Assembly (NCBI GenBank): GCA_020845635.1
Contig: JADLFI010000018.1
Location: forward strand, 1 to 64,000
Source: Bacteroidia bacterium
GTDB taxonomy: Bacteria; Bacteroidota; Bacteroidia; UBA4408
Reading direction: 5' to 3'
DNA length: 64,000 nt
The position numbers and the translations under genes were made by a program. The notes under the pieces were generated by a model. The model worked only from the letters and a program-made list of their open reading frames with translations, was not told the DNA's origin and ran no database searches. Below, piece by piece: positions 4,877 through 54,617 of this stretch. Numbering within the stretch: position 1 is the stretch's first letter; every line of letters starts with the position of its first letter.

Positions 4877-5722
4877 TTATTGTTTGATAAAGGAATTGCT
4901 TAATGACTGGTTGGCGGCATTAATCAGTTGTATATGATTCAATCCATTGGCCAATGAACTTATATCAATACTTACCTTACCCGCCTTTACATTGGTTTGC
5001 GCCTGATATACGCTTTGCCCCAAAGCATCAAATACGGTGATAATGGCATTGCCTTCGGTGGCATTAATCAGTTCCAGGGTAAGGTTATTGCTGGCAGGGT
5101 TGGGATACACTTTAAGCGCACTTGCTGCCAGCGATGTTACATTTTTACCGTGCTCCTGCGTTTGCAAAGCAATAGGCCTGAAAGGATAATCGTAGCCGTC
5201 AACAGCCTGCTTCAGCAAATCGTAAGCCTTTGGGCTGCAAGGCAGCGCTGCGGCTGCAATGCTTTTTAAGGCTGCAATGTCAGCAGCATTTAGTTTGCGT
5301 GGTGTCAGGTTTTGTAACCACATACCGGTTTTTATGCTTTCTAATTTTATTGTTTGCTGCTCATTTTCACTGCTGCTGTTAATACTTTGTAAATGAGTTA
5401 ATGCAGCTTGAAAATCGCTTTTTGCAAAATTATAATAATAATCTAACCAGGCTTGCTGACCCGCATTTAACTTACCTGAGCTATTTACTAAATTATAAAC
5501 GGTATTTATTTCAGCCTGCTTACTATAGGCAGCCAGCAGGTTAAACAAACCTGCGGCTTTGGGCAGCAGCTCGGTTGCTTTCCATCTGCTAATCTGCCGC
5601 TCAATTCCCGGAGCTAAGCTTATACCGTTTTGCTCCATTTTAATAATGCTGTCGTTATTAAAAACAAAGGGCGCACAGGTTGTAAGGCTGTCCATATCCA
5701 ACTGCTGGTTGTAGTTAAAATT
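4877..5722 (-). pseudogene. 5'-truncated gene for a T9SS-sorted protein
   Basis: The open frame ends in a complete T9SS type A sorting domain (VYPNPASNNLTLEL to FIKQ) but has no credible beginning. The only start available is a TTG at 5701, there is no signal peptide, and the frame stays open upstream (RVNFNYNQQLDMDSL) until it runs into an insertion-sequence end at about 5722. The ~200 residues before the sorting domain are helical and leucine-rich, with no family I recognise. The best reading is the 3' end of a larger secreted-protein gene whose front was lost when the element inserted and decayed. A T9SS tail without a signal peptide cannot be exported, so the product is probably non-functional if it is made. 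Confidence 0.7.
4959..5104. repeat. Direct repeat copy 2, encoding part of a T9SS sorting domain
   Basis: This is the second copy of the 146-bp module at 2766-2911, with about two base differences. It lies inside the truncated gene at 4877-5722. Confidence 0.85.
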
Positions 5723-51486: not shown

Positions 51487-52338
51487 ATGAGAACCTTGAG
51501 CAAAAAAGCGATTGTTGTTGTTGTTACGGTGTTTTTAATGCTTTCATTAAATCACGATGTTAAATCTCAAAGTAACATCCTTGATGGTGTTTATATAAAA
51601 GAACACTCATTACAACGCAAAGTAATTCCTTATTCTTCATTACGCGAAGCTGATGTGATGTGGAGTAAAAGAATTTGGAGAATTGTTGATTTGCGCGAAA
51701 AGATAAATCAAGATTTTTATTTTCCTACTGATCCTATTGCCGGGAGAAAAAGTTTAATGCAGGTAGTATGGGATGGAGTTACCAAAGACGGTTCATTAAT
51801 TGCATACAGCGATGAAAATGATGGTGACTTTACCACTCAATTGTCAAAAACCGAGTTAGACGCCAAATATAACTCTTGGGATACAACTCAGATTGAGAAC
51901 TTTGAAACCGGAGAGCTAGAAGAAAAGATTACACAAAGGCAATTTATACCTGCCGAGGTTAAGCAAATTAAAATTAAGGAGGAGTGGTTTTTTGATCGTC
52001 AGCGTTCAGTTATGGATGTTAGAATAATTGGTTTAGCTCCGGTACGTTTTTATGAAAAAAATGGAGAGGAAAGGATAGAAACAATGTTTTGGATTTATTT
52101 TCCCGAAGCCCGATTTACCTTTGTAAATGCTGAGGTGTATAATAAGGGAAATGATGCTGAGCGTAGAACTTATGACGATATTTTTATGAAAAGACGTTTT
52201 AGCAGTTATATCTACAAAGAGAGCAACGTTTACAATAGAAGAATTAATGCTTACCTATCCGGCTTAGATGCCTTATTGGAAGCTGAAAAAATCAAAGAAG
52301 ATATTTTTAATACCGAGCATGATTTGTGGGAATACTAG
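51487..52338 (+). CDS. gldN: T9SS periplasmic ring protein GldN
   Basis: It has 283 residues with a signal peptide (AIVVVVTVFLMLSLNHDVKS). Family motifs include ADVMWSKRIWRIVDLREKIN, SLMQVVWDGV, IKEEWFFDRQRSVMDVRIIG and WIYFPEARFTFVNAEVYN. It pairs with GldK in the ring beneath the outer membrane. Its final codons (AEKIKEDIFNTEHDL) are repeated at the end of the next gene because of a tandem duplication (52282-53842). A strong terminator follows the stop. Confidence 0.97.
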   Translation: MRTLSKKAIVVVVTVFLMLSLNHDVKSQSNILDGVYIKEHSLQRKVIPYSSLREADVMWSKRIWRIVDLREKINQDFYFPTDPIAGRKSLMQVVWDGVTKDGSLIAYSDENDGDFTTQLSKTELDAKYNSWDTTQIENFETGELEEKITQRQFIPAEVKQIKIKEEWFFDRQRSVMDVRIIGLAPVRFYEKNGEERIETMFWIYFPEARFTFVNAEVYNKGNDAERRTYDDIFMKRRFSSYIYKESNVYNRRINAYLSGLDALLEAEKIKEDIFNTEHDLWEY

Positions 52339-53062
52339 GTTAAAAGAGTTGTATAATAGAAAAGGGAGGCACTGCCTCCCTTTTCTATTATTGTTACCTT
52401 ATACAGAGAGCCTTTGAATATTTCAAAATTGACAAATTTTAAAATAGAGATTTATTTTTTATAAATTTATATATTTGTAGAATATTGAAAAATATGTTTA
52501 TGCAAAAAAGTTTCAAGAATACTGCGTTTAAGTATTACGCTTACTTGTGGAAAGGACTTTTTTGTTTGATGGTAGTTTTACTGATTACCAATAAAGAGAG
52601 TATTGCGCAAAAAGGCAAGGCATTTACTTTAGAGATTAATGGGTTGGTAGTTGATGATGACTCTCGTAGAACCATTGATGGGGCAATTGTTAAACTTACA
52701 GATAATAAAGGGAAGTTAATTCAAACCATAACCACTACTGGAAATGGGAAATTTAGGTTTACATTAGACCCTGATAAAGAATATTTAATTTCTGCAGGAA
52801 AACCCGGATACACAGGTAAGATTGTTTCGGTAAGTACAGTTGGAGTTTACACCGAATCAAACACGTTAGATTATTATAAGTTTCCGATGTCAATTGGTAT
52901 TTTTAAGGAAGTTCCGGATGTAGATGTATCGGTATTAGAGAAACCTTTAGGGGAAGTTTTTTATAATCAAACTACGAAAGAATTTGATTATAATGCCGAT
53001 AAGTTTATGCGTGGTGAATTGGAAAAGATGGCTAAAGAAATTGAAAAGAAAAAAAAGGAAGA
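52282..53062. repeat. Tandem duplication, copy 1 (about 780 bp)
   Basis: This unit runs from the last ~19 codons of gldN, through the terminator and the promoter (TATATTTG at 52470-52477), to about codon 193 of the next gene. It is followed head to tail by a second copy that differs at only a few percent of positions. The join is at a short shared GCTGAAA. Exact ends may be off by a few bases. Confidence 0.85.
52355..52389 (+). terminator. Rho-independent terminator after gldN
   Basis: A near-perfect inverted repeat, about 16 bp per arm (AATAGAAAAGGGAGGC and its complement around 52372), is rich in GC at the tip, with a TTTTCTATTATTG tail. It is duplicated at 53135-53169. Confidence 0.85.
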
Positions 53063-53120
53063 GGCTGAAAAAATCAAAGAAGATATTTTTAATACCGAGC
53101 ATGATTTGCGGGATTACTAG
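52494..53120 (+). CDS. Chimeric truncated paralogue of the next gene, ending in the GldN tail
   Basis: About 208 residues from the ATG at 52494. An in-frame TTG lies 9 nt earlier, and another ATG at 52500. It has a signal peptide or anchor (GLFCLMVVLLITNKESIAQ), then a carboxypeptidase-regulatory-like beta-sandwich (FTLEINGLVVDDDSRRTIDG, NGKFRFTLDPDKEYLISAGK), then FYNQTTKEFDYNADKFMRGE. All of this is almost identical to 53274-54617 (about four changes). After EKKKKEEAE it switches to KIKEDIFNTEHDLRDY, which is the end of GldN. The long coiled coil and C-terminal domain of the parent are missing. It is open, has its own copied promoter and terminator, and may be made, but it is a by-product of the duplication. 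Confidence 0.75.
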   Translation: MFMQKSFKNTAFKYYAYLWKGLFCLMVVLLITNKESIAQKGKAFTLEINGLVVDDDSRRTIDGAIVKLTDNKGKLIQTITTTGNGKFRFTLDPDKEYLISAGKPGYTGKIVSVSTVGVYTESNTLDYYKFPMSIGIFKEVPDVDVSVLEKPLGEVFYNQTTKEFDYNADKFMRGELEKMAKEIEKKKKEEAEKIKEDIFNTEHDLRDY

Positions 53121-53842
53121 CAAAAGTATTGTATAAAAGAAAAGGGAGGCACTGCCTCCCTTTTCTTTTATTGTTTACCTTATACAGAGAGCCTTTGAAT
53201 ATTTCAAAATTGACAAATTTTAAAATAGAGATTTATTTTTTTAAATTTATATATTTGTAGAATATTGAAAAATATGTTTATGCAAAAAAGTTTCAAGAAT
53301 ACTGCTTTTAAGTATTACGCTTACTTGTGGAAAGGACTTTTTTGTTTGATGGTAGTTTTACTGATTACCAATAAAAAGAGTATTGCGCAAAAAGGCAAGG
53401 CATTTACTTTAGAGATTAATGGTTTGGTAGTTGATGATGACTCTCGTAGAACCATTGATGGGGCAATTGTTAAACTTACAGATAATAAAGGTAAGTTAAT
53501 TCAAACCATAACCACTACAGGCAATGGGAAATTTAGGTTTACATTAGACCCTGATAAAGAATATTTAATTTCTGCCGGAAAACCCGGATATACAGGTAAG
53601 ATTGTTTCGGTAAGTACAGTAGGAGTTTACACCGAATCAAACACGTTAGATTATTATAAGTTTCCGATGTCAATTGGTATTTTTAAGGAAGTTCCTGATT
53701 TAGATGTATCGGTATTAGAGAAACCTATAGGTGAAGTTTTTTATAATCAAACTATGAAAGAGTTTGATTATAATGCCGATAAGTTTATGCGTGGTGAATT
53801 AGAAAAGATGGCCAAAGAAATTGAAAAGAAAAAAAAGGAAGA
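53063..53842. repeat. Tandem duplication, copy 2 (about 780 bp)
   Basis: This is the second unit of the duplication described at 52282-53062. It begins with the GldN-like tail that closes the chimeric gene and ends within the intact downstream gene at about 53842, where the original sequence continues into the coiled-coil region. Confidence 0.85.
53135..53169 (+). terminator. Rho-independent terminator after the chimeric gene (duplicated copy)
   Basis: An inverted repeat like that at 52355-52389, with two compensating differences in the lower stem (AAAAG paired with CTTTT instead of AATAG with CTATT). The fact that both arms changed together suggests the stem has been kept paired. Confidence 0.85.
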
Positions 53843-54617
53843 GGCTGAAAGATTAAAGCGCGAGCAAGAAGAACTTAAAAATAAAGCCAAAAGAGATGCA
53901 AAGGAAGCAGCCGAAGCTGCTGAGGCGGCACGAAAAAGAGCTGCCGAGGAGGAAAAGGAAAGATTAAAAAGAGAAGCTAGAGAAAAAGCCGAAGCTGAAG
54001 CTGAAGCAAAAAGGAGATTAGCCGAAGAAGAGGCTTTAAAGAAAAAATCTGAACAAGATGCTAAAAGATTAGCTGAAGAAGAAGCGAAACGTAAGGCTCA
54101 GGAAGCAGCAGAAGCTTTAGCAGCAAAAAAGAAAGCCGAGCAAGATGCCATAAGAGAAGAAGCCGAAGCCGCAAAGGCTAAAGCTGCAGCCGAAGCAGAG
54201 GCAAGGGCTCAAGCTAAAAGAGAAGCTGAGGAAGCTGAAAATGCAAAGGCTGCTGCAGCAGCCGAGGCTGAATTTAAACGAAGAGAAGCGGCTAGACTTC
54301 AAGCAGAGGAGGAAGCAAGGCAAAAAGCTGAGTTGAAAGCTCAAGAATTGGCTCAAAGACGTGCAGAAGCTGAAGCACGTTTACAGGCTGCAGAAGAAGC
54401 AAAAAAAATATATGTAAAATTTGTTGATTATGATTCAGAGGAAGGAACTAATTGTTTTATCTCGAAAACCATTGTTACCTTAACAACGGGTGATATTATT
54501 GTTTATAGAAAAATCACCTACACATGGGGTGGTCTTTATTATAAAAAAGACAACGCAGATATTTCTCAAGAAAGTTTTATTCAAGAACTAAAGAATATTG
54601 TGATAAAGACCGATTAA
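53274..54617 (+). CDS. Envelope protein with carboxypeptidase-regulatory-like domain and long coiled coil
   Basis: About 447 residues from the ATG at 53274. An in-frame TTG lies 9 nt earlier, and a -7-like TATATTTG is at 53250-53257. Layout: signal or anchor (GLFCLMVVLLITNKKSIAQ), a carboxypeptidase-regulatory-like beta-sandwich (to ~115), and a linker with FYNQTMKEFDYNADKF. Then comes about 200 residues almost entirely of Ala, Glu, Lys and Arg, a long charged helix or coiled coil like that of TolA. A compact C-terminal domain of ~65 residues (IYVKFVDYDSEEGTNCFISK ... GGLYYKKDNADIS) ends the protein. I know no named family for the whole. The plan could span the periplasm. It follows gldKLMN, so a T9SS or envelope role is possible but unproven. 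Confidence 0.8.
   Translation: MFMQKSFKNTAFKYYAYLWKGLFCLMVVLLITNKKSIAQKGKAFTLEINGLVVDDDSRRTIDGAIVKLTDNKGKLIQTITTTGNGKFRFTLDPDKEYLISAGKPGYTGKIVSVSTVGVYTESNTLDYYKFPMSIGIFKEVPDLDVSVLEKPIGEVFYNQTMKEFDYNADKFMRGELEKMAKEIEKKKKEEAERLKREQEELKNKAKRDAKEAAEAAEAARKRAAEEEKERLKREAREKAEAEAEAKRRLAEEEALKKKSEQDAKRLAEEEAKRKAQEAAEALAAKKKAEQDAIREEAEAAKAKAAAEAEARAQAKREAEEAENAKAAAAAEAEFKRREAARLQAEEEARQKAELKAQELAQRRAEAEARLQAAEEAKKIYVKFVDYDSEEGTNCFISKTIVTLTTGDIIVYRKITYTWGGLYYKKDNADISQESFIQELKNIVIKTD

Follow-up and report, generated by a model that had tools for sequence, protein, structure and literature searches.

Immediately downstream of gldN, in the 64,000-nucleotide stretch of a Bacteroidia genome that we analyzed (the window), a tandem duplication at a 7-bp repeat has created an in-frame chimeric gene and left both of its parent genes intact, as a preliminary description of this DNA had proposed. 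Comparison of the sequences makes it probable that the gene now following gldN moved there, that a short-junction duplication came afterwards, and that the product, an exported variant of that gene's protein without its long coiled coil, has been kept by selection. We refer to the gene after gldN, which encodes a signal peptide/CarboxypepD_reg/coiled-coil protein, as cc. All features of the duplicated region described below lie on the forward strand.

The parent genes and the duplication

Both parent genes are full length on either side of the chimera. The gldN gene (51487-52338) encodes 283 amino acids, matches PF19841 (1e-69) and TIGR03523 (5e-64), follows gldK-gldL-gldM as in relatives, and is the donor of the chimeric tail. 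In many genomes of the class a second gldN-like gene adjoins gldN (loci L042, L123, L126, L128, L131, and L150). The cc gene (53274-54617) encodes 447 amino acids, matches PF13620 (2e-9) and has single orthologs in the genus that are 52-58% identical to it. Its N-terminus is the same as that of the chimera. Prediction of its structure gives a signal-peptide helix, a CarboxypepD_reg beta domain (residues 44-128, PF13620), a long helix of about 214 residues (164-377) and, after it, a C-terminal region whose sequence is conserved in the genus; the full model is weak (mean pLDDT 57) and was used only for rough helix limits.

Alignment of the duplicated units gives lengths of 782 nt (52282-53063) and 780 nt (53064-53843), in agreement with the two head-to-tail units of ~780 bp, running from the end of gldN into the next gene, that had been noticed earlier. 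The two are ~97% identical and differ by 24 substitutions and 4 indel bases. Unit 1 holds the last 18 codons and stop of gldN, a hairpin, the promoter region and the start of the cc copy, and in each unit about 100 nt of upstream sequence separates the hairpin from the cc start. At 780 bp and ~97% identity this is the longest direct repeat in the window and is far above chance. Elsewhere in the window, on the minus strand, a 186-nt stretch is found in two neighbouring genes (2732-2917 and 4925-5110) with 92% identity; by its look it resembles the C-terminal sorting tail of type IX secreted proteins, and the identity could reflect gene conversion.

The crossover had been placed at a GCTGAAA common to gldN and cc, and the sequence bears this out. 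The motif is found in gldN (52282-52288), at the recombination joint (53064-53070) and in cc (53844-53850), it encodes Ala-Glu in the same frame in both parents, and the homology at the joint is exactly these 7 bp and nothing longer. This length also bears on whether the duplication is real. Two strain variants of one gldN-cc region might have been stitched in tandem during assembly, and the genome is indeed in 60 contigs, with a difference of ~3% between the copies that resembles strain variants. Against this, assemblers do not join on 7 bp, which is far under any assembler overlap, so a read or molecule that bears the junction must have existed. In addition, the reported contamination is 0.21%, and the loss of a tryptophan in the copied GldN tail, described below, is more easily understood in a freed copy than in a strain allele. 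We therefore regard an assembly artefact as improbable.

The hairpin that follows gldN (52353-52391) has an 18-bp stem, is terminator-like and folds to -27.0 kcal/mol; it was not listed by the terminator scan, which requires more T after the stem. Its copy, 3' of the chimeric gene (53133-53171), folds to -26.4 kcal/mol and was listed as terminator-like. As had been described, the stem is altered in both arms together, with a T-A pair at 52357/52387 in unit 1 and A-T in the second copy, and both forms fold to about -27 kcal/mol. The core of the hairpin is found in these two copies only and is not a genome repeat, and a search of the region against Rfam gave no match.

The chimeric gene

The chimeric gene (52494-53120) starts at the ATG at 52494, or possibly at the TTG at 52485, and encodes 208 amino acids with the C-terminal end EEAEKIKEDIFNTEHDLRDY. 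It is composed of 192 cc codons followed by KIKEDIFNTEHDLRDY from GldN; earlier figures of ~193 shared codons and ~17 tail residues are thus corrected to 192 codons and 16 residues after the shared Ala-Glu. The protein has a signal peptide, a CarboxypepD_reg-like beta domain (PF13620, 5e-10, above the family cut-off), a short helix and the 16-residue GldN-derived tail. The GldN core domain is absent, with no match to the TIGR03523 or PF19841 profiles, and the chimera does not belong to the GldN family. Only the first 28 residues of the long cc helix precede the joint, and in a low-confidence model (mean pLDDT 54) the GldN tail simply prolongs what is left of it, giving a sole helix at residues 166-207. 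Comparison of the chimera with solved structures returned, besides SdrD, only WD-40 and designed propellers; in these no stretch passed alone, and they were discarded. A tblastn search of the chimera against plasmids gave no match, and a scan of genome contigs found only an Acinetobacter coiled-coil stretch.

Signs of selection in the body and the tail

The preliminary description held that the duplication is under some selection. The comparison of the copies supports this for the body and does not support it for the GldN-derived tail. Over the 192 shared codons the copies differ by 13 silent and 4 replacement changes (dN 0.009, dS 0.12-0.15, dN/dS ~0.07), while the neutral expectation is 72-79% replacements (P 2e-6 to 5e-5 against neutrality). 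One possible objection is that the parent alone is constrained. Yet a neutral chimera that had received half of the silent changes should show 18-26 replacements, so that parent constraint alone does not explain the silent excess of the body. Neutrality can be rejected even with all four replacements assigned to the chimera, as long as five or six of the silent changes are its own. At two of the replacement sites, codons 143 and 152, the three relatives compared all match the parent residue, which indicates that the chimera is derived at these positions.

The 16-residue tail carries two changes, both replacements, which turn DLWEY into DLRDY. Since the tail is otherwise that of GldN, the peptide of the chimeric end suggested earlier is specific to the chimera only in its last residues. 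The lost Trp, part of the EHDLWEY of the GldN C-terminus, is present in 45 of the 46 GldN tails from the class. A functional gldN would hardly be expected to accept its loss, and W to R most probably dates from after the duplication. The replacement excess of the tail over the body (P 0.08) is suggestive only. Together these patterns suggest a body that is kept and a tail that was freed.

We also noted that at six sites (52526, 52643, 52712, 52916, 52920, and 52952) the chimera has G and the parent T, with no site of the reverse kind. For two of the six the direction can be assigned, and it suggests a T to G change in the chimera; the numbers are small, and a mutational bias or a sequencing effect could produce such a pattern.

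Might the tail have brought a function with it? One hypothesis places the chimera at the type IX secretion ring: its tail would dock at the site of the GldN tail, and the protein would serve as an adaptor or compete with GldN. In favour of this, the tail of GldN is strongly conserved, both proteins are predicted to be periplasmic, and in the ring structure the terminal arms of PorN contact the neighbouring PorK (PMC12635249). The tail of the chimera, with just two changes, both of them replacements, has nevertheless lost the near-invariant Trp (DLWEY to DLRDY), and the GldN core is missing, which leaves this role very improbable.

A second hypothesis accepts the duplication as real and takes the chimera as a functionless by-product that persists by chance, the apparent constraint reflecting divergence between strain alleles before recombination joined the units. 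The decaying tail is in line with it, as are several silent changes that give the chimera rarer codons (GCG, GGG), as under relaxed selection. If the units came from the alleles of different strains, the silent excess could predate the duplication. Such a history needs a second event, namely the import of a diverged allele together with an illegitimate joint, and at least a part of the divergence is later than the duplication, as W to R is unlikely to be tolerated in a working GldN. Since tandem repeats of this kind are also usually lost (PMC3486894), we find this account unlikely, more credible than an assembly artefact and clearly behind retention by selection.

Age of the duplication

The duplication had been called recent. 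The copies do differ by few bases, and their dS of 0.12-0.15 is small beside the divergence between species (gldN dS ~1.5 or saturated), the three other species of the genus being too distant to date the event. On the scale of bacterial generations, in contrast, it is not recent: mutation rates in bacteria are usually 1e-10 to 1e-9 per base per generation, and at such rates a dS of 0.12-0.15 takes a very large number of generations to build up. Newly formed short-junction duplications are readily cured and usually lost quickly (PMC3486894); that this one has lasted long enough to diverge so far speaks for its retention by selection, unless the units already differed as alleles when they were joined.

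Order of events in the genus

We compared the genome of the window (G000) with three other species of the genus (G001, G002, and G003). In these three, gldN and cc are each single and lie far apart or unlinked, and among the four species cc directly follows gldN only in the window's genome. None of the three carries a short gene with a GldN-like end, so that an ancestral short gene, which would have spoken against the duplication, was not found among them. In G002 and G003 cc is located just upstream of rpsL-rpsG-fusA. On its other side, G001 and G002 agree in having the suf cluster and a conserved 178-aa gene before it, and in G001 cc is the last gene on its contig. The window's genome carries the suf cluster and the 178-aa gene on a different contig that lacks cc, and after them comes a gene that we take, by eye, to be amylase-like. 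Downstream of cc here come a 91-aa gene and, farther on, a peptidase gene; these are likewise apart in the relatives.

Since cc and gldN are unlinked in three relatives and cc is upstream of rpsL in two, we infer that the first step in this lineage was the arrival of cc next to gldN. The duplication would then be the later event, because both units carry the gldN end and the hairpin. The presumed former neighbourhood of cc offers an observation on its own. In the window's genome rpsL is at a contig start, without cc, and is preceded by the end of an IS1595-like element (G000:C57:1-130, L084), which occupies the place where two relatives keep cc; this transposase end occurs four times in the genome, at the ends of contigs or close to them. 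Transfer of cc by such an element was considered and not adopted: no copy of the IS end is present on the contig of the window, and the species of the genus differ extensively in gene order, which leaves the idea a suggestion.

A candidate Bacteroidota -7 element, TATATTTG, is found before the chimeric gene (52470-52477), with a second copy before cc (53250-53257). The pattern TAnnTTTG precedes cc in all four species, and cc therefore seems to have moved with its own promoter; by itself the motif is not above chance. The ~130 nt after the hairpin show zero substitutions and one indel between the units. This was noticed after the fact, and the promoter region may have been kept.

A coil-less form in the same family

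Another question that is raised by the chimera is what use a cc protein without its coil could have. All four species carry an older coil-less paralog of ~190 aa (G000 C38, G001 C37, G002 C99, and G003 C9), upstream of a thymidylate-synthase-like gene, that ends where the cc part of the chimera ends. Like the chimera, these proteins have an N-terminal hydrophobic segment and a homologous beta domain and end near the helix start. They differ from it in being ~30% identical, in occupying a separate, old locus and in lacking a GldN-derived tail, and by locus and identity the chimera is not their ortholog. It fits the coil-less form all the same, with a CarboxypepD_reg domain, no long helix (in a low-confidence model) and a sequence that can be aligned with the paralogs. 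As the paralogs end at the corresponding point, the fusion appears to have re-created an existing form, and the chimera, judged by its sequence, is an independent re-creation from cc of a form that the family already uses. More generally, the four genomes hold a large paralogous family of exported CarboxypepD_reg-like proteins (L106-L118, G000-G003), with coil-less, medium (with a shared C-terminal region) and long-coil forms.

The mechanism that we find probable would start with cc coming to lie beside gldN and bringing its own promoter. A RecA-independent, short-junction tandem duplication between the GCTGAAA in gldN and that in cc would then have produced the chimera and left the parents intact. 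The chimera is predicted to be expressed from the copied cc promoter and exported by the cc signal peptide, and its role in the envelope would be that of a cc protein without the coil: a CarboxypepD_reg-like beta domain carried by a short helix. The former GldN tail would cap it, having supplied a stop codon and a terminator and no GldN function. The body would be kept by selection for a useful short form; the conservation of coil-less paralogs across the genus points the same way. We hold more tentatively that a single step, a short-junction duplication at 7 bp next to a conserved secretion operon, may have given rise to a new and persistent natural gene that selection maintains, re-creating the coil-less form with the gldN end as a ready-made stop and terminator.

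Comparison with known duplications

The mechanism of this duplication is already known, and the locus is a clear natural example of it and not a new kind of thing. In Staphylococcus aureus, short-junction duplications at sigH have 7-8 bp repeats and units of 1.2-1.9 kb, and produce an in-frame fusion with the parents intact (PMC3486894). The likeness to the present locus is close: direct repeats of 7-8 bp at the joint, a unit of ~1-2 kb, and the 5' part of the downstream gene fused in frame to the 3' part of the upstream gene and driven by the downstream promoter. By the topology and joint length read from its sequence, the locus is a natural member of the sigH type. The sigH duplications are rare, reversible and laboratory-selected and activate the protein of the upstream gene. 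The one described here, unlike them, has persisted to a dS of 0.12-0.15, and its constrained part is the head of the downstream gene. Tandem duplications with promoter fusions in the histidine genes of Salmonella (Anderson and Roth, 1978, as cited in PMC11111574) and engineered duplications at a 9-bp microhomology (PMC11111574) also make a new junction gene or promoter fusion, and these are laboratory-selected, in contrast to the natural and diverged locus here. Gene-fusing short-junction duplications have mainly been known from the laboratory, where they are unstable; a natural case whose copies have diverged at silent sites, with its body constrained, its tail freed and an intact parent adjacent to it, shows how such accidents can become genes.
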